Positions 1-20,758 of a stretch of 25,649 nucleotides of DNA are shown here, piece by piece; position 1 is the first letter of the stretch; every line of letters starts with the position of its first letter. The notes under the pieces were generated by a model, which saw only the letters and a list, made by a program, of their open reading frames with translations, did no database searches and had not been told where the DNA came from. The stretch is taken from IMG/VR virus record IMGVR_UViG_3300021957_000267, positions 1 to 25,649 of that record; one strand, given 5' to 3'. The position numbers and the translations under genes were made by a program. The DNA is from a virus.

Positions 1-1763
1 TTCTCTGACCCATACTCACCGGTCTCTTCTTGTTTAGCTTCAACATCATCTTGTGCATCTTGTAAGTTCTGGGCTATGACATTGGCTACAGTTTGTTCAG
101 CTTCTGTGGCTGATGCATCTGTAGAGACTGACACATCTATTTGACTTTGTAAAGTTTGAGTAGTTGTTGTATCAACTGCGACACTCGTTGTCTCAACTGT
201 CTCAGCTTCAACACTTGTAGAGCTTGTAACACTAGCACTCATATCTAACACTTGATTGTTTTGTGCAGTAGAAGATGCAAATTGTTCTGATATACTAGGT
301 GAGTTACTAGTACTTACACCCCCACCAGAATTAGACGATGATACGCTAGAAGCTCCTGTCGTTCCACCTGTAGCGTGTATAGAGTTTCCTGATGTAGTTC
401 CACTAACACTAGACTTAGCTGTGCTTAGAGTAGAGGAGACAACACGTAACGCTGTTTCTTTACTTATTGAACTTTCACTTTCTGAAACTTCAGCAACCAG
501 TTCTTCTTCTATCTCTTCTTCTATAACCTCATCTTCTTCTTCAACCAGCTCCTCAATAAGCTCTTCTTCCGGCTCTTCTGCATACGCAAGTTCTTCTTCC
601 ATTGTTGTCTCTTCCTCAAACCACTCCTCCACTTCTTCAATAAATGTTTCTTGAAATACAAACTCCTCAATCATCAACTCTTCAATCGGTATAAAGGCTT
701 CTTCTTCACGCATAAACGGAAGAGGTTCTACAAATTCTTCAAGTGGTTGTAGCTGTTCAAAGATTATATCTTCTTCAAATACAAACTCAGGCTCTTCAAA
801 GATGTCATACTCAGGTTCAAAGATGTACTCTTCAAAGATTTCTGGCTCTTCAAAAGTGTCATACATGTCATACTCTTCGTAACCATAGTCAAATAGTTCT
901 TCTTCATATCCGTAGTCAAAGTATTCTTCTTCTTGATAGTATCCTATATCTTCTTCTTGTCGATAGCCTTGACAAAATGGTCCATACTGTGGGTCTAGGT
1001 CACATTGAAAATCATCATAGGCTTCCCAGTACCCTGCACAGCTTACATCATTTAAAGGATTACTACAGTCAATGGTCTCGCTTGTACCATACAACGAACC
1101 ACCAGCTTCTAATAAAGTATTTGATGTAGTGCTGTTCCAGTCCTTACTTACACAAGAGCTAGTATTGGTTGTTCCTGTATTACATTCATCGTGAAACAAG
1201 TATTGATAGTAAGTATCTGAATCTTTCTGTTGTCCAATAAGAACATCGTGCTGTATAATATTTAAGTCACCATACCTAAAATCAAAAGTAGAGTTAGTCC
1301 AAAGTATTACTTCAAAACTGTTATCAGTATTACTACGATTATACTCACGCATGTCGTACCAACCAAAGACTGTCTTATCACTAAAGTTCTTGGCTAACAT
1401 TTTAGAGTTGTTATCTCTTATCAAGTCAGTCCAGAACGGAAACAGTGTGTAGTTGTATTGTGGTAGTGGGTCAGGTGTGTAATCACCACAGTAATTATTA
1501 TAGTTTACATTGCCTGTACCTAACCCAAAGTGAAGACAACCATTCGTAGCCATACGAGCAGATGTAAATTGTTTATCGTAAAAAATAAATGTAAAATCTA
1601 AATTAAAAGCAGACGAAAGCTGGTCGTCTCCTGAGTTTAGACTGGTTGTATTTGATTCGTTTGTAAGGTCTACTAAAGACTGATTGCCTTCGTAGATATA
1701 CTGACTAAAGACATTAAGACTTAAGAGACACGCTACTGCGTAGCATAGAATTCTTTTCTGCAT
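1..1763 (-). CDS. Partial exported protein with nidogen-like (NIDO) domain and acidic repeat tract
   Basis: The frame opening with ATG at 1763 stays open for 587 codons and leaves the window, so the C terminus is missing. Residues 1-21 look like a Sec signal peptide (basic MQKR, then a hydrophobic stretch ending VFSQ). Residues about 50-190 resemble the extracellular NIDO domain: a beta-rich segment with 'FTFIFYDKQF', 'RMATNGCLHFG' and 'LFPFWTDL', matching the 'sNG.i.Fg ... PFW.D' pattern of that family. Eight cysteines lie between residues 76 and 264, suggesting disulfides outside the cytoplasm. Residues about 268-425 are extremely Glu-rich with Tyr/Phe repeats (two copies of an 'FDYGYEE' unit, several 'FEEPE' units), then a Ser/Thr-rich tail to the edge. 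The start overlaps the preceding gene by 31 bases, with only a weak ribosome site. The role is unknown; export to the envelope of the infected cell or a virion surface role are inferences. Confidence 0.8.
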   Translation of the reverse strand, partial: MQKRILCYAVACLLSLNVFSQYIYEGNQSLVDLTNESNTTSLNSGDDQLSSAFNLDFTFIFYDKQFTSARMATNGCLHFGLGTGNVNYNNYCGDYTPDPLPQYNYTLFPFWTDLIRDNNSKMLAKNFSDKTVFGWYDMREYNRSNTDNSFEVILWTNSTFDFRYGDLNIIQHDVLIGQQKDSDTYYQYLFHDECNTGTTNTSSCVSKDWNSTTSNTLLEAGGSLYGTSETIDCSNPLNDVSCAGYWEAYDDFQCDLDPQYGPFCQGYRQEEDIGYYQEEEYFDYGYEEELFDYGYEEYDMYDTFEEPEIFEEYIFEPEYDIFEEPEFVFEEDIIFEQLQPLEEFVEPLPFMREEEAFIPIEELMIEEFVFQETFIEEVEEWFEEETTMEEELAYAEEPEEELIEELVEEEDEVIEEEIEEELVAEVSESESSISKETALRVVSSTLSTAKSSVSGTTSGNSIHATGGTTGASSVSSSNSGGGVSTSNSPSISEQFASSTAQNNQVLDMSASVTSSTSVEAETVETTSVAVDTTTTQTLQSQIDVSVSTDASATEAEQTVANVIAQNLQDAQDDVEAKQEETGEYGSE

Positions 1764-2812
1764 TGCCTTTTTGTTTTAGTTTTAGTTGTATAAATAACTT
1801 TGACTGCCCCAACAACATCTTTGTTTATCTTGTCTCTGTTAGGATTTCTGTCGTGTGTGCATTGCTGTATAAAAAGTTTTTCTTGTTCTTTAGCATCAGG
1901 TCTTTTAGATTTGTTTTCTGCCCAAGCTTTAGTTGCTTCTTTACCTATCTGACCTTGATAAGGGCAAGGAGTACCAGCCATTTCCATAGCCTTAAATACT
2001 CTTGGGTCTTGACAAAGTATAGATACTGAAGCCACTTTCATACCGGTATCGTACAGATACTTGGAAAGTTTTAAGCGTTCACAGTTCTCGTCAGTCACAG
2101 TAGCTCCTGTAGAGAACCCAAATACTTGCCCTTGAAAGGCACCAGAACGACCTACAGTACAGAGGTCTTGAGAGTAAGACATAATACTAGGTGCTATAGC
2201 AGAAGCAGGAGGTGCTTTGCTTTTTACGTTCTGATTAATAGTCTGAGTAGAGTTAGACTCGTTAATATTTCTATTAGTATTATCAGACTTTGTATTGTTA
2301 TTATTGGTATTAGTATTGTCAGTAGTAACATTAGAATCTGAAGTCGATGTATTAACGTTAGTATTGTTATTAGTATTTGTATTATTACTAGTAGAATTAC
2401 TGTTGTTATTTACGTTCTGATTGACTGTAGAGTTTACAGTAGAGTTAGATGTAGACGTAGAAGTATTAACGTTGTTGTTATTGTTTGTATTTGTTGAAGT
2501 GTTATTTGATGTCGAGGTATTTACGTTAGTATTATTTGAAGTATTAACATTAGTATTATTATTAGTGTTAGTATTTACATTTGTATTGTTATTAGTATTG
2601 GTGTTTGTATTGGTATTACTATTCGTATTATTGTTGGTGTTGGTATTAGTAGTCACTGTAGTATTAATGGTAGTTAATCCATTGTCTTCACAATACTGTG
2701 TACCCGAAGTACAGTCGCCTGTTTGGTCTGAACTTACAGCAAATGACATTGTTAATAAACCTAATATAAATAATGGTCCAAAAAATCCTCTATTTAAATC
2801 ACCTCTTGACAC
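1733..2812 (-). CDS. Exported Asn/Thr-rich protein with Cys-containing C-terminal domain
   Basis: The 359-residue product begins with a signal-peptide-like segment (charged residues 1-9, hydrophobic 10-26). The start is GTG, chosen because an AGGAG site lies 5 bases upstream and because the next ATG would remove most of the signal peptide. Residues about 47-196 are almost only Asn, Thr, Ser and Val in short repeats, probably a flexible extended spacer. Residues about 197-359 form a conventional domain with 'MSYSQDLCTVG', 'DENCERLKLSKYLYD', 'ILCQDPRVF' and 'AGTPCPYQG', which I remember as a recurrent family of unknown function in uncultured marine phages. Eight cysteines in total fit an exported, disulfide-bonded protein. 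It sits just after two membrane proteins and overlaps the next exported protein gene, so the two may act together at the cell envelope. No enzymatic function is assigned. Confidence 0.8.
   Translation of the reverse strand: MSRGDLNRGFFGPLFILGLLTMSFAVSSDQTGDCTSGTQYCEDNGLTTINTTVTTNTNTNNNTNSNTNTNTNTNNNTNVNTNTNNNTNVNTSNNTNVNTSTSNNTSTNTNNNNNVNTSTSTSNSTVNSTVNQNVNNNSNSTSNNTNTNNNTNVNTSTSDSNVTTDNTNTNNNNTKSDNTNRNINESNSTQTINQNVKSKAPPASAIAPSIMSYSQDLCTVGRSGAFQGQVFGFSTGATVTDENCERLKLSKYLYDTGMKVASVSILCQDPRVFKAMEMAGTPCPYQGQIGKEATKAWAENKSKRPDAKEQEKLFIQQCTHDRNPNRDKINKDVVGAVKVIYTTKTKTKRQCRKEFYATQ
2225..2674 (-). repeat. Asn/Thr codon-repeat tract within the exported protein gene
   Basis: The coding strand here is a degenerate run of AAT/AAC and ACT/ACA/ACC codons with occasional GTT and AGT, encoding residues about 47-196 of the exported protein. 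The repeats are imperfect and the codons vary, so the amino-acid composition seems selected rather than the DNA sequence itself. Confidence 0.75.
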
Positions 2813-2817
2813 TTTAT

Positions 2818-2822
2818 CTCCT
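2818..2822 (-). promoter_or_regulatory. Ribosome binding site deciding a GTG start
   Basis: On the minus strand AGGAG lies five bases before the GTG at 2812 and overlaps the TAG stop of the preceding gene. It supports GTG rather than a downstream ATG as the start of the 359-residue exported protein. Confidence 0.7.
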
Positions 2823-3186
2823 ATTTAGTTTTTGATGTTGATGTATATAATCCAAACCATGCAGCACCTGCTCCGACTACTACTGATATGAACCCTGATT
2901 GTTCCATTGTTGGGTCACTAATTTCCATAAACCAAAACGTGGTATAGTATAATAAGAACATATACACACTTAAAAAAGCTCTAGGTATTATTCTCCAACT
3001 ATCCACAGCTTGTGCTACAAATATTAATTTTTGATAAGGGTTATCGTTCTTGATATCCTCTAACTCTCTTATCCTATCTTTAAGTGCTGACTTTTCTTGC
3101 AGCAACTCCATAAACTTATTAAGGTCAATCTCTACCTCATTTCTATCCATGTCGCCACTGAAGCCACCCATATTATTCTGTTGCAT
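2821..3186 (-). CDS. Small membrane protein, holin or lysis-accessory candidate
   Basis: The 121-residue product has a polar N-terminal half with a likely coiled coil (about 20-48, 'EIDLNKFMELLQEKSALKDR') followed by two hydrophobic helices at about 68-90 ('AFLSVYMFLLYYTTFWFM') and 98-115 ('GFISVVVGAGAAWFGLY'), ending in a basic tail. A GAGGG ribosome site precedes the ATG. It follows a three-helix membrane protein by 9 bases and precedes an exported protein, a place typical of lysis genes in small phages. The topology allows a holin or holin-regulating role, but no family is recognised with certainty. Confidence 0.75.
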   Translation of the reverse strand: MQQNNMGGFSGDMDRNEVEIDLNKFMELLQEKSALKDRIRELEDIKNDNPYQKLIFVAQAVDSWRIIPRAFLSVYMFLLYYTTFWFMEISDPTMEQSGFISVVVGAGAAWFGLYTSTSKTK

Positions 3187-3195
3187 AATGCCCTC

Positions 3196-3630
3196 TTATT
3201 TTTTAACTAGGCTGCCACCAAAGTACATACCTATGATTGCTGATACAAGGTTTGTATCTAATTGTGTTATTACCAAGCCTTGAAAAGTTATCCATTCAAA
3301 TACTTCTCTACCATCTGAAAAGAATAAAAAGCCCGGTTGAAATAATGTATATCCTACTGTTACATCTACACTCGGATAATATACTGCTACCAGTTTAGGT
3401 AGTATAACAATTGCAAAGATAGATGATAACGCAATGATACGTCTTGTCCATTGGAATCCTTTATCTTGTACGTTACGTGCAGACTCTACAGCTTTAAGTT
3501 GAAACTCACCTCTTGTAATCAACATCTTTTGCTCATCTTGTTTAGCCTTCATACGTTGAGACCACAGACTTAACACACTACTCAATAGAGTAGAACCTAA
3601 CATAGTTATAATTTCAAATGGGAACATCAT
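3196..3630 (-). CDS. Three-helix membrane protein, probable holin
   Basis: The 144-residue product shows a hydrophobic N terminus (about 4-24, 'FEIITMLGSTLLSSVLS'), a charged region rich in Lys/Arg/Glu, a second helix preceded by Arg-Arg (about 64-88, 'IIALSSIFAIVILPKLVAVYY') and a third hydrophobic segment close to the C terminus, ending Lys-Lys. This layout resembles the '3TM' holin family known from gene transfer agents and many marine phages; the assignment rests on topology and general resemblance. It overlaps the preceding small gene by 17 bases. An AGAGGTG ribosome site precedes a doubled ATG, so the true start could be either ATG. It would release the virion or another muralytic enzyme at lysis. 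Confidence 0.75.
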   Translation of the reverse strand: MMFPFEIITMLGSTLLSSVLSLWSQRMKAKQDEQKMLITRGEFQLKAVESARNVQDKGFQWTRRIIALSSIFAIVILPKLVAVYYPSVDVTVGYTLFQPGFLFFSDGREVFEWITFQGLVITQLDTNLVSAIIGMYFGGSLVKK

Positions 3631-15783: not shown

Positions 15784-16350
15784 CTATTCACTCCATGCTT
15801 GAGTTAAATCATAATTATAAGTTGGGTGGTCTGCACCTACTCCTATCATTGGTGTTTCTGCAGAACCTCCTAAGTAATACATTTCTAGATTGTTACTATT
15901 CCAATAGTCTCCACCAATTCTACATCTAATTTGTAAAGTATCTGCATCTTGAACAGTCAGTGTAGGGTAAGTTCCATCTCCTGAACCACCACCATTAAAA
16001 CTTGGGTGTCCTCTGTGAATGACTTCTCGTATTTTTGTAGCAGTTGCATGTATCCCACTACTAGCATTATCGTATCTTCTTTGGATAACCCACTCTTTCC
16101 AGTTATTACCCCAATAGTAAGTGCCCCAATTATGAGTAGCTATATAGTGAGTTGTAAATCTAGTATCAAAATTGCTTCTTACATCTGCTGTGCTACTAGG
16201 TACAGTTACCGTATCTTGAACATCTACAGGTAGATAAAAATCAAACTGCATAGCTCCACCATTAGAACCATCATGTCCACCATTACTAGCATATGTGTTT
16301 GTTTGAGCACATGCTATCATTATCCCACCATTTCCACCTATTAAAGCCAT
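15784..16350 (-). CDS. Tail adhesin-like paralogue 3
   Basis: The 188-residue product is the third of three related proteins encoded one after another downstream of the tail fibre. Shared traits are an N terminus 'MALIGGNGG', a central 'GTYYWG' motif (paralogues have GSYYYG and GTYYEG), a 'YPTLTVQDA' stretch, then 'YWNSNNLEMYYLGG' and a Gly-rich end containing 'MIGVG'. The proteins are beta-rich, Asn/Gly/Tyr-rich and lack signal peptides, as expected for virion surface proteins. Aromatic and Gly-rich loops suggest receptor or glycan binding, by analogy with small adhesins placed after long fibres. No clear ribosome site precedes this ATG, so it may be translated by coupling to the gene before it. 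Function is inferred from context. Confidence 0.75.
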   Translation of the reverse strand: MALIGGNGGIMIACAQTNTYASNGGHDGSNGGAMQFDFYLPVDVQDTVTVPSSTADVRSNFDTRFTTHYIATHNWGTYYWGNNWKEWVIQRRYDNASSGIHATATKIREVIHRGHPSFNGGGSGDGTYPTLTVQDADTLQIRCRIGGDYWNSNNLEMYYLGGSAETPMIGVGADHPTYNYDLTQAWSE

Positions 16351-16356
16351 ATTAAT

Positions 16357-16938
16357 TTACACCCAAAAAGTTTGATAATATCTATCGTCATAATCTGCAC
16401 CTCTACTACCAAGTCCTGAAGGTGCTCCTGAATTTCTACCAACAAAAGTAACATCAGTACCACCACCTAAATAATATACTTTAACTTCGTTTGCTGTAAA
16501 ATAATCTTTGTCTTGTCTGACTCTTAATTTACCTGTTGCATTATCTTGAACTGTTAAAGTAAAATCATTTGATGAATCAAAACTACTATAGTTATCTCCA
16601 ACTTGCTCACTTAACTGCATAATATATCCACTTGAACTAGCATTTGGATTTCTAAAATAAATATACTCTCTATATACTTGTCCGTAATAATAAGAACCTA
16701 CAGCATGTATTCCTAGTTTTATAGCACACCCAGAAGTTGAATTTGGGTGTGTGGCTGCATGTAAATACACAGGGTCTTGAGTGTAGTTAGTTCCACTTGT
16801 AGGTTTGGATGTTTGTAATGAATCAATATTAGTTATTATAGGAACTACAAAGTCCATTTGTTTTGCAACGTTATCAGTATTTTCTGCTGAACTAAAAGCT
16901 GCTATAATTGGTCCTTTAAATCCACCTATTAATGCCAT
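16357..16938 (-). CDS. Tail adhesin-like paralogue 2
   Basis: The 193-residue middle member of the trio starts 'MALIGGFKGPIIAAF' and contains 'GSYYYGQVYREY', 'FTLTVQDNATGKLRVR', 'YFTANEVKVYYLGG' and 'TFVGRNSG', each aligning with equivalents in its two neighbours while the sequence in between differs strongly. The 'TLTVQD' segment is shared with paralogue 3, and 'ATG' plus 'R' positions in the following strand with paralogue 1. A clear AGGAG ribosome site precedes the start. The pattern of conserved framework and divergent loops suggests duplication followed by diversification of a binding surface. Confidence 0.75.
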   Translation of the reverse strand: MALIGGFKGPIIAAFSSAENTDNVAKQMDFVVPIITNIDSLQTSKPTSGTNYTQDPVYLHAATHPNSTSGCAIKLGIHAVGSYYYGQVYREYIYFRNPNASSSGYIMQLSEQVGDNYSSFDSSNDFTLTVQDNATGKLRVRQDKDYFTANEVKVYYLGGGTDVTFVGRNSGAPSGLGSRGADYDDRYYQTFWV

Positions 16939-16947
16939 GCTATACTC

Positions 16948-17538
16948 CTATTTCCAATCATCGTCTTGTCCATATCTAGAATCATAAGTTAAGTTTCCAA
17001 TGTATGGAACTCCACCACCACCATTAATAATATGCATTTCAAAGTGGTTACTGTTCCAATAATCAGGTTCTCCACCACCACCAACATTTAATCTAAATTC
17101 TCCTGTTGCAGTATCGGAAGAAGTAATTGCAGGATATGTATCTCCTGTGTTCCAGCCCGAATGTACTCTTGTATGTACAGACCAGACTGTTGTAATTTTT
17201 ACTCTATTGGCTGGACTTGCTTCTCCGGTGTAATGACTTTGAATATTAAACAGTCTAGCAGTTTTACCTTCGTAGTAAGTACCGTACTCAGCAACTAAAA
17301 TTTGACATGCATTGGCTAAGTTACTTGAATTATAAATAGTATCATCAGCATCTTTACCTGATTGAGCTGCTGTTAGTGTAGCATTAGGCATTACTGAACT
17401 TGCATTAGAAAAACAAGGTATTTTAAAATTTACATAAATTTCTCCAGCACTATTTATAACAGTAACCTCACTTGCAGTCTGATTGGTTTGACCATAGCCT
17501 ACCATTTGCCCATTATTACCACCACCGTAAAGCGACAT
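16948..17538 (-). CDS. Tail adhesin-like paralogue 1
   Basis: The 196-residue first member of the trio begins one base after the tail fibre stop. Its ribosome site (AGAGGAAG) lies inside the fibre's last codons, so the two are translationally linked. It starts 'MSLYGGGNNGQMVGYGQTNQ' and shares 'GTYYEGK', 'TYPAITSSDTATGEFRL', 'YWNSNHFEMHIINGGGG' and 'YIGNLTYDSRYG' with the two genes that follow. The acidic, Asp/Tyr-rich C terminus resembles that of paralogue 2 ('DYDDRYYQ'). Position suggests a fibre-tip or fibre-associated receptor-binding protein. Confidence 0.75.
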   Translation of the reverse strand: MSLYGGGNNGQMVGYGQTNQTASEVTVINSAGEIYVNFKIPCFSNASSVMPNATLTAAQSGKDADDTIYNSSNLANACQILVAEYGTYYEGKTARLFNIQSHYTGEASPANRVKITTVWSVHTRVHSGWNTGDTYPAITSSDTATGEFRLNVGGGGEPDYWNSNHFEMHIINGGGGVPYIGNLTYDSRYGQDDDWK

Positions 17539-17539
17539 A

Positions 17540-20500
17540 TTAAACTTCCTCTAATTTAAACTTGTATTGTTTGCCTGTTTTTCTATTTATAATAAATAAA
17601 TCTTCAGAACCCTCTTGAATTGTCCAAGAGCCTTTAGTGTTGTCTACTTCGTTAGCATCGCCTTGTTCATTAGATAACTGTAAGTCATTGGTGTAAATGT
17701 TTCTCCAACGAGTTGCTGTAGCTCCTAAGTCATAAGTATTGTTTGCACCCGGAAGTAAGTGTCCGTTGTTATCCAGAACAAGTCTTTCTGTTCCAGCAGT
17801 ATCAAATCTAATTTTATCCTCATCACTGCTTTCTTCTACTTGAATTTTTGTATCTCCATCGGCATCGGCTGTAGACCCACCTCCAGCATCTTCCCAAGCT
17901 ACTCCACTTCCTGTTGAAGTAAGTACTTGTCCATCTGAACCTTGAGCACCATTAACTTTAAAGTTTTCACCGTCTATGGTTGTTGCATCAACTAGCCCTG
18001 CTACAGTTACTGTGTTAGCAGTTAAAGTTATTAAGTCTGTATCAGATGTATGACCAATGGTAGTACCATTAATAATTACATTATCAACTGTAAGAGTTGT
18101 AAGTGTACCAAGACTTGTAATGTTTGATTGAGCTGCACCTGTTACTGTTGCTGCAGTTCCTGATACATTACCTGTTACATTTGCTATAAGTGTACCGACT
18201 GCGTAGCCTGTTGCTCCTGTATTAACTGTAGTACTTGGTGCTGTTTGAGAATCTACAAATAATGCAAATGTATTATCAGTAGATGCATCAAAATACAAAC
18301 CAGCATATTTAGTTGTGCTAGATTCTACATATTTACCATAGAACCCAAAGTCTGTAGAGTTACCACTGTTATTTTGTGATAAAGCTTGGAAGTTAGAATT
18401 AGATAGTAACGAACCTGTTTGTGTTGTACTACCTGTAACTACTAAGTTTCCACTAACTGTTAAATCGTTAGCAATGGTCACATCATTAGATAGTTTATCA
18501 CCTGTAACTTGGTCGTTTGCAATATGAGCTGTATCAATACTACCGTCTGCTATTTGAGCAGAATCAATAGCATCGTCTGCTATCATAGAATTTACAATAA
18601 CATCACTACCAATTACAAAGTCTAGAGTATTATCACTATCATCATAGGTTACTGATATACCTGTTTCTGTATTAGAACCAACCATAGCACCAACTGTATC
18701 TGAAATAGTTTCAGCTAGAGTTGTACCATTAACTGTTATAGCATCTGCTTCTAACGTACCATCAATATCAACATCACCTGAAATATCTAAAGTTGCTGCT
18801 ACTAGTTGACCACCAATAGTTAAATTACCAGAACTAGGATTATAAGTAAATCCTGTATCAGTTTCTAAACCTTGTGTTCCTGTAGCTCCATCAACAAACA
18901 CAGGGAATATATTTTCATCTGTACTATTATTAGCTGTTATAGTTGATGCTGTAGCTATTGCTGCTGTACCTGTAATGTCACTTGAAGTTAATGCAAGTGT
19001 ACCTGTTGTTGTAGGTAAAGTTACAGTAACATTTCCACTATAAGCTGCGTGAGCTGCTGCTTCTATTCTAGTATAATGAGCATTAGATGATTCACAATAT
19101 AAATCAATTCTTGACTTAGAACCACCATTTTTAATTGCTATAGCACCTTGAGATATTGCTACTCCATTTGTAGAACCACCAGCAATACCTAATGTTCCTG
19201 CAACGTCTCCATTACCTGAAATATCTAATGTAGCAGCATCAAGTTCTCCAGAAATTGTAATGTTTCTACCACCAGTAATATCTTTATTAGAGTCTGTAAT
19301 AATAGCTTTACTAGCTATAACAGTTCCGTTAGTTATGCCATCTATAAGGTTTATATCTGCTGCACTTGCTGTTACACCATCTAATATGTTTAACTCAGCA
19401 GCAGTACTTGTAACACCATCAAGGATATTAAGTTCTGCAGCAGTAGATGTTACACCATCTAAAATATTTAGTTCTGCTGCAGTTGATGTAACTGCTGTAC
19501 TGTTAATAGATAAAGCATCTGTTTCTAGTGTTCCGTCTATATCTACATTTCCAGATATATCTAAACTAGGAGCAACAATTTCATGTGAAAATACAAAGTT
19601 ATCATTAGAAGCACTCCAAGCTATTGATGCATCGTTTGAAGCATCTACTGCATCTTGTATAGTAATACCAGCACCATCTGCTGAAGCTGATGTATCTCCT
19701 GAACCTTTGTTAAGTGTTATATTTTTGTCTTCAACATCTAACGTTGCTGTAGATAAAGTAGTTGTACTACCGTTTACTGTTAAGTTTCCTGTAACTGTAA
19801 CATTACCACCAACTGCTAAATTACTAGCCATGTCAACAGCACCATCAATATCTACAACATCAAGGTTTGTAGTTCCGTCTACATCAATATCACCACTTAC
19901 ATCTAAAGAACCTGCATCAAGTTCACCTGTAAGTGTAATGTTTCTAAAGCTTCCAATGTCTTTATTAGAATCTACTACAACTGCTTTAGAAGCTGCTACA
20001 GTTCCTGCAGTAACTCCATCAATTGTTTCTAATTCTGCTTCAGATATATCAGCACTACCAATAACAAAGCTTGTACCTGTAATAGCTGTACCTGTAATTG
20101 CAGCAGCACTAGAGCCACCAATTATAGCACCATCAACTGTACCACCATTAATGTCTGCAGTATCAGCTACAAGACTATCTATGTTAGCAGTACCATCAAT
20201 ATACAAGTTTCTCCATTGTTGTGAAGAACTTCCTAAGTCATAAGTATCATCATCATCAGGTATAATATTAGAATCAACATCAGCACCAAAGACTACGTTA
20301 TCAGTAGCTGCATCACCCATAGTGATTGTACCACCGTTAAAAGTTGTTGTACCTGTAACTGTAAGATTACCACCTATACCAACATTACCAGTAGTAGTAA
20401 TAGAATCTATGTATGCATCTTTAAAATATAAAGAACTGGTACCTATATCAATATCACTGTCTGTAACAGGTACAATAGCACCATCGGCTATGTATAACTG

Positions 20501-20758
20501 TTGTACAGGACTACTAGATACTTGTACATAAAACTCAATGTAGTTATTTGTTGTATCAATTAATACTTTGTTATTGGGAGCTGTTTCTCCTGCATCTCCA
20601 ATCAATCCTATAACTGGACCTTCAGCAGTAGTACCGTCATGTTTATGACCACCTGTATTGCTAAATGCACTTAAAAGTTGATTGTATTCATCATTGAATA
20701 GTGCAGCAGTTATCGTGTCTCCATCTACGAATGAACTCTGTCTTATGTAACCTGCCAT
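17540..20758 (-). CDS. Repetitive tail fibre protein
   Basis: The 1072-residue product begins 'MAGYIRQSSFVDGDTITAAL' followed by a 'GGHKHDG' motif (His38, His40), an arrangement frequent at the N termini of podovirus fibres. The body is beta-rich and Asp/Gly/Thr/Ser-rich, with repeated 'TLDISGDVDIDGT'-type units, four 13-residue 'TSTAAELNILDGV' units at 424-475 and a duplicated segment of about 38 residues (about 250-287 and 477-514). The strand motif 'TYDLGSSSQQWRNLYIDG' appears near 180 and again near the C terminus ('TYDLGATATRWRNIYTND'). It ends 'IINRKTGKQYKFKLEEV' without an intramolecular chaperone protease, so host binding may be carried by the downstream adhesin-like proteins. A strong GGAG ribosome site precedes the ATG. 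Confidence 0.85.
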   Translation of the reverse strand: MAGYIRQSSFVDGDTITAALFNDEYNQLLSAFSNTGGHKHDGTTAEGPVIGLIGDAGETAPNNKVLIDTTNNYIEFYVQVSSSPVQQLYIADGAIVPVTDSDIDIGTSSLYFKDAYIDSITTTGNVGIGGNLTVTGTTTFNGGTITMGDAATDNVVFGADVDSNIIPDDDDTYDLGSSSQQWRNLYIDGTANIDSLVADTADINGGTVDGAIIGGSSAAAITGTAITGTSFVIGSADISEAELETIDGVTAGTVAASKAVVVDSNKDIGSFRNITLTGELDAGSLDVSGDIDVDGTTNLDVVDIDGAVDMASNLAVGGNVTVTGNLTVNGSTTTLSTATLDVEDKNITLNKGSGDTSASADGAGITIQDAVDASNDASIAWSASNDNFVFSHEIVAPSLDISGNVDIDGTLETDALSINSTAVTSTAAELNILDGVTSTAAELNILDGVTSTAAELNILDGVTASAADINLIDGITNGTVIASKAIITDSNKDITGGRNITISGELDAATLDISGNGDVAGTLGIAGGSTNGVAISQGAIAIKNGGSKSRIDLYCESSNAHYTRIEAAAHAAYSGNVTVTLPTTTGTLALTSSDITGTAAIATASTITANNSTDENIFPVFVDGATGTQGLETDTGFTYNPSSGNLTIGGQLVAATLDISGDVDIDGTLEADAITVNGTTLAETISDTVGAMVGSNTETGISVTYDDSDNTLDFVIGSDVIVNSMIADDAIDSAQIADGSIDTAHIANDQVTGDKLSNDVTIANDLTVSGNLVVTGSTTQTGSLLSNSNFQALSQNNSGNSTDFGFYGKYVESSTTKYAGLYFDASTDNTFALFVDSQTAPSTTVNTGATGYAVGTLIANVTGNVSGTAATVTGAAQSNITSLGTLTTLTVDNVIINGTTIGHTSDTDLITLTANTVTVAGLVDATTIDGENFKVNGAQGSDGQVLTSTGSGVAWEDAGGGSTADADGDTKIQVEESSDEDKIRFDTAGTERLVLDNNGHLLPGANNTYDLGATATRWRNIYTNDLQLSNEQGDANEVDNTKGSWTIQEGSEDLFIINRKTGKQYKFKLEEV
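19334..19489 (-). repeat. Four tandem 39-bp units in the tail fibre gene
   Basis: Four back-to-back 39-base units encode three near-identical copies of TSTAAELNILDGV and a diverged fourth (ASAADINLIDGIT in register). The DNA copies differ at many third codon positions while the protein is constant, so the repeat is held by protein-level selection and not by recent duplication. Confidence 0.85.

Follow-up and report, generated by a model that had tools for sequence, protein, structure and literature searches.

The virions of tailed phages are assembled in the cytoplasm, and phage-encoded exported proteins that block receptors, such as Llp of T5, are an established kind. In marine phages, genes for a 'putative carbohydrate binding domain containing protein' were found to be the commonest identifiable genes (14) in hypervariable islands, and the function of carbohydrate-binding genes of marine phages was inferred to be host recognition (Mizuno et al., 2014; PMC3909814). 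The gp25 protein of phage Mu is small, has an N-terminal transmembrane segment, is encoded near the endolysin and is required for endolysin release (PMC9239132). For NIDO domains in phages, no paper was found in the open-access literature, and the section examined of the HTVC027P transcriptome paper does not name the gene cassette described below.

The window, i.e., the whole stretch of DNA that was analysed, is a viral record of 25,649 bases. With a match of the major head protein to phrog_267 and a tail protein whose nearest relatives are found in the Pelagibacter phages HTVC115P, HTVC104P and HTVC103P (46-49% identity), followed at greater distance by others such as HMO-2011, the phage can be classified as an HMO-2011/HTVC103P-like podovirus, and we infer that its host is probably SAR11 or a relative. 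The preliminary description had reported an open frame of 587 codons at the left end, and this frame was confirmed (gene B; Table 1). The remainder of the gene was recovered from contig L001, whose protein is identical across the overlap and adds 67 residues and a stop to give 654 amino acids in total; the tail fibre and tail-tube genes of L001 are 100% identical to those of the window. As the end of gene B is a conserved domain, the earlier concern that a stop just past the edge might leave no coherent domain did not materialise. The frame is also not a chance one, because 249 and 263 stretches in IMG/VR carry relatives and the complete members mostly have 641-802 codons; of each of the large IMG/VR scans the best 80 were used, and the loci are in part fragments. 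Neither gene B nor the head of a divergent member matched in tblastn searches of INPHARED, and the head had no relative in the bacterial genomes searched. Judged by their sequences, the relatives of gene B form a marine phage protein family with hundreds of members. An exported NIDO protein of a phage had been called unusual; export and a NIDO-like character are both supported, but with such a family and a cassette of its own the protein is no lone oddity. In L037 (5995-6990; ending at 331 codons) and L237, gene B has an early stop or frame change, which is either a true break or an assembly error.

Table 1. Features of gene B and its upstream neighbours, in window coordinates.
Feature	Position	Strand	Basis or remark
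Gene B, predicted exported NIDO-like protein (654 residues, of which 587 lie in the window)	3..1763	-	ATG start; left window edge open
Predicted signal peptide, residues 1-20	1704..1763	-	small-x-small motif kept in family
NIDO-like beta-rich head, residues 22-225 (204 residues), exchanged module	1089..1700	-	sub-threshold PF06119 match and AF2 model
Cys-rich motif, residues 226-270	954..1088	-	sequence pattern
Glu-rich tract, residues 271-430	474..953	-	composition
Ser/Thr-rich stretch, residues 431-560	84..473	-	composition
Start of conserved C-terminal module, continues beyond window	3..83	-	family conservation, L001
Gene A (phrog_20531), predicted exported, Asn/Thr repeats, conserved four-Cys C-terminal domain	1733..2812	-	profile match
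Small gene (phrog_10198) upstream of A, with a hydrophobic stretch	2821..3186	-	profile match
Small neighbour gene (phrog_38283), hydrophobic stretch, holin-like by appearance only	3196..3630	-	phrog match

At the N-terminus of the protein, a signal-peptidase-like small-x-small motif lies 0-1 residue before a conserved YxYE in all 91 distinct N-termini of the family. The signal peptide was called from motif conservation, and it is supported because the motif is conserved although these N-termini otherwise vary widely in sequence. In the head that follows, 18 of 35 diverse members match the NIDO profile PF06119 (best E 7e-4), and the window protein does so in two collinear pieces. With 18.8 bits against a curated cut-off of 25 bits, however, the window, like in each of its other scores, stays below the threshold, and the head is called NIDO-like here rather than assigned as a PF06119 member. 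A confident AlphaFold (AF2) model of a beta domain (pLDDT 86.4, pTM 0.88) was obtained with the alignment of 35 diverse rows, whereas 15 sequences gave a pLDDT of only 45. The NIDO-like domain of the preliminary description is supported by this model, by the sub-threshold match and by conservation in the family. The head shares with NIDO domains the collinear match, the all-beta architecture and the location in an exported protein; it differs in that the protein has no other nidogen domains and in that Foldseek and VIA-align returned no usable structural relative from the PDB, an absence that is no proof. The best relative of the head in BFVD (Foldseek) is an uncultured phage protein (E 4.8e-9, TM 0.69). 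In profile searches of PDB sequences, the Cys part had no more than marginal matches to cathepsin L and the C-terminus no useful match, and the CBM_4_9 profile did not match the window protein.

Behind the head, relatives carry an inserted Cys repeat of ~21 residues in 0-3 copies (strict pattern). The Glu-rich tract comprises 39% Glu, with 71 acidic, 1 basic and 29 aromatic residues among 160; the aromatic residues noticed before are indeed frequent, but at spacings of 1-12 they are not strictly regular. The Ser/Thr tail is borne out by its composition (26% Ser, 18% Thr). For the acidic arm, a role as a chelator of LPS-bridging cations was rejected, since Ca and Mg are abundant in seawater.

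Gene B is very probably the middle member of a conserved three-gene cassette, A-B-C, which is widespread in marine phages and involves export. Gene A, which in the window shares its last 31 nt with the start of gene B, was found directly upstream of B in all 178 NIDO-type loci with enough flank (E<=1.8e-40) by means of an HMM derived solely from phage isolates with other B types. Downstream of B, 161 of 170 NIDO-type loci carry gene C, an ORF with a hydrophobic N-terminus, a coiled coil and an '...NPLxx' end. Gene A also occurs in other kinds of pelagiphages and in roseophages, and the order in pelagiphages is A, then a protein of 430-610 residues with a predicted signal peptide, a head and an acidic arm, and finally gene C with ~75-130 residues, again with hydrophobic N-terminus and coiled coil and in most cases with the NPLxx end; two pelagiphages have an extra small gene within the cassette. 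The C proteins of NIDO-type and CBM-type loci can be aligned over their full length (hhalign 98%, E 1e-13). In bacterial genomes, gene A was found on no more than 20 contigs. Almost all of them come from MAGs whose taxa are too diverse to be plausible, and they are most likely mis-binned phage contigs; the bins of the contigs concerned (L403-L422) include Flavobacteria, SAR86, Woesearchaeota, Actinomycetota, Trichodesmium and others. Within gene A of the window, a tandem repeat array coding for Asn and Thr (2358-2651; units of 6, 12 and 30 bases) forms a low-complexity exported stretch. In some relatives (L005:7979-8577), B and C are separated by a small gene and by a gene for a NifU-like Fe-S scaffold (PF01592, E 4.6e-37). 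For the phrog_38283 gene, no profile support for a holin was obtained.

The middle gene of the cassette can have other heads, which are CBM-like in HTVC033P and of a third type in HTVC115P; further types occur on phage-like contigs binned into MAGs (several of L403-L422). Middle genes of the HTVC115P type were found in at least 498 stretches, with gene A present in 68 of 68 and a following ORF in 69 of 72, the profile of which matches gene C (E 7e-8); for the CBM type, A was found in 28 and C in all of 33. The C-terminal modules of the NIDO and HTVC115P types match each other with an E-value of 2.5e-5, a score reached by none of 300 column shuffles. An HMM of NIDO-type tails further detected the module in L413, L416, L411 and L412 (E 2e-7 to 2e-4 in a 26-sequence set; reversed decoys 1.4 or worse), the heads of which look different; in L413 the Cys motif CSNPLNDPSCAGY is also present, in the same order. 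Gp53 of HTVC115P and its relatives share with gene B the cassette position, a predicted signal peptide, an acidic arm and a homologous C-terminal module, whereas their head looks unrelated and their arm contains 5% instead of 17% aromatic residues. The putative carbohydrate-binding proteins of marine phages (HTVC033P gp45, BAQ94057 of AP013540 and those of the islands of Mizuno et al., 2014) likewise lie between A and C, are hypervariable and combine a predicted signal peptide, a beta-rich head and an acidic arm. They differ in the head; the gene at the cassette position of AP013540 matches CBM_4_9 below the cut-off (E 0.009). The C-terminal kinship of the two types is weak and no more than suggestive, as 5 of 300 shuffles attain the score.

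Across 88 loci, the identity of the head is not tracked by that of A, C or the neighbouring genes. Between L106 and L001, the A domain and the tail are 100% and C is 99% identical while the heads share 48%, and the nucleotide identity falls from ~95% to ~57% over the head-coding part only; in L019 and L274, a head identity of 58% stands against 99% for A and 100% for the tail. Heads below 80% identity were found in 22 of 85 close pairs, which are not independent of each other. That cassettes which are otherwise near-identical carry heads of only 48-58% identity marks the head as an exchanged module. A covariation of head and tail fibre, as expected if the head masked the phage's own receptor, was not found in the cases examined: head and fibre appear uncoupled in these, since L003 and L037 combine nearly the head of the window with different tail fibres.

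From our point of view, the locus is best explained by a late envelope complex that acts at virion release, although we hold this explanation at slightly less than an even chance. In such a complex, A and B would be exported late in infection via the host Sec system, the C-terminal module of B would dock on A and/or C, and C would tether the assembly at the inner membrane. The disordered acidic arm could then let the head reach and bind a variable outer-envelope component, be it a glycan, LPS or a surface protein, and the complex would assist virion release by opening or detaching the outer envelope, resembling the bridging by spanins but without canonical spanin parts. An action of gene B on the envelope or the surface of the host, the latter as suggested earlier, agrees with the data, and binding of the envelope by the head is likely. 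A role of the cassette in lysis or release is a more tentative proposal, for which we see a chance somewhat short of even; a generic membrane disruptor would have no need of a variable, exchanged head, and the better fit of a specific binding target counts against the release role. Yet more tentatively, A-B-C could represent an undescribed class of envelope machine in phages, namely a secreted, membrane-tethered adhesin with cartridge-like head exchange that is found in podo- and myovirus-type marine phages and acts from inside the infected cell, not on the virion.

The neighbourhood of the cassette is that of lysis genes in several phages. A Phage_lysozyme gene lies upstream of the cassette in L017; in L042 such a gene is located one gene after C. 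HTVC033P has an amidase near it and HTVC023P an endolysin directly after C, and in CRP-207 and CRP-810 a lysozyme is found near A, which is present there with differing other neighbours; no annotated lysis gene stands beside the cassette in HTVC115P and Mosig. This neighbourhood, as well as the N-terminal hydrophobic segment and the coiled coil of gene C, recalls the two-component Rz/Rz1 spanins, and C of L001 matches the Rz-like spanin phrog_739 (E 2e-4), although this match is weak, concerns a coiled coil and calls for caution. Unlike these systems, the cassette is accompanied by no o-spanin lipoprotein that could be found (no credible lipobox ORF near it in 13 loci, by a home-made lipobox scan), and the partner B is an exported protein of 650 residues with a binding head; a recognised spanin pair was absent from the cassette regions examined.

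The main rival to the release role is a masking of the cell surface, serving to exclude superinfecting phages or to protect the progeny, in which the exported head would bind the host receptor and keep rival phages, or the virions released by the phage itself, from adsorbing to the infected cell or its debris. The predicted export of B and the position of the cassette in the late region agree with it, head alleles swapped between near-identical cassettes would suit a strain-variable surface target, and T5 Llp provides the precedent. B, however, lacks a lipobox and by far exceeds the known exclusion lipoproteins in size, the type of its head is independent of the phage's own tail fibre in L003 and L037, and the lysis genes nearby in several phages would be left unexplained; we consider masking unlikely. 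Rather improbable is a B protein on virions or debris that aids host recognition or the attachment to marine particles. The head is exchangeable, and the reading of island genes as host recognition (PMC3909814) could be extended to AP013540, which has a gene annotated in the same words at the cassette position. Against this, the predicted signal peptides of A and B imply Sec export and argue against an ordinary virion protein, which would be assembled in the cytoplasm; a receptor-binding protein of the virion would be cytoplasmic and without the signal peptide motif that all of the N-termini carry, and the head is uncoupled from the tail fibre in the cases examined.

It is also conceivable, if very improbable, that gene C is a regulator of endolysin similar to the releasin Mu gp25 (DUF2730), with A and B as accessory envelope proteins. 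The C gene of AP013540 was labelled DUF2730 by its depositors, and like Mu gp25, which is needed for endolysin release (PMC9239132), C is small and charged helical with an N-terminal hydrophobic segment; it is encoded near an endolysin in L017, L042, HTVC033P and HTVC023P, though not in all cassettes. The match of C from L001 to PF10805 (DUF2730; E 0.065) is, however, far under the cut-off (13.8 against 24.9 bits), the lysozyme of L017 has no hydrophobic N-terminal SAR segment, and C belongs to a three-gene set with exported partners. Its topology is likely opposite, too: Mu-type proteins are N-out/C-in, whereas in the C proteins of the CBM and HTVC115P types basic residues are more numerous ahead of the hydrophobic segment than behind it, which suggests N-in.

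The host-recognition reading is at odds with the predicted signal peptides, at least for those carbohydrate-binding genes that lie in an A-B-C cassette, and published host-recognition genes of a similar kind may, judged by sequence, act from inside the infected cell. If the cassette genes encode exported envelope proteins, part of the island variation would reflect the surface or the lysis of infected cells and not adsorption. The cassette is further a source of candidates for the outer-membrane release step in phages of SAR11 and of Roseobacter relatives. Elsewhere in the window, three consecutive paralogous genes of ~190 aa (15784-17538), which are probably fibre-associated, lie downstream of the long tail-fibre gene, and the adjacent region (17540-20758) encodes a fibre-like protein of 1072 aa with exact internal repeats (TSTAAELNILDGV), the middle and C-terminal parts of which diverge strongly among relatives.
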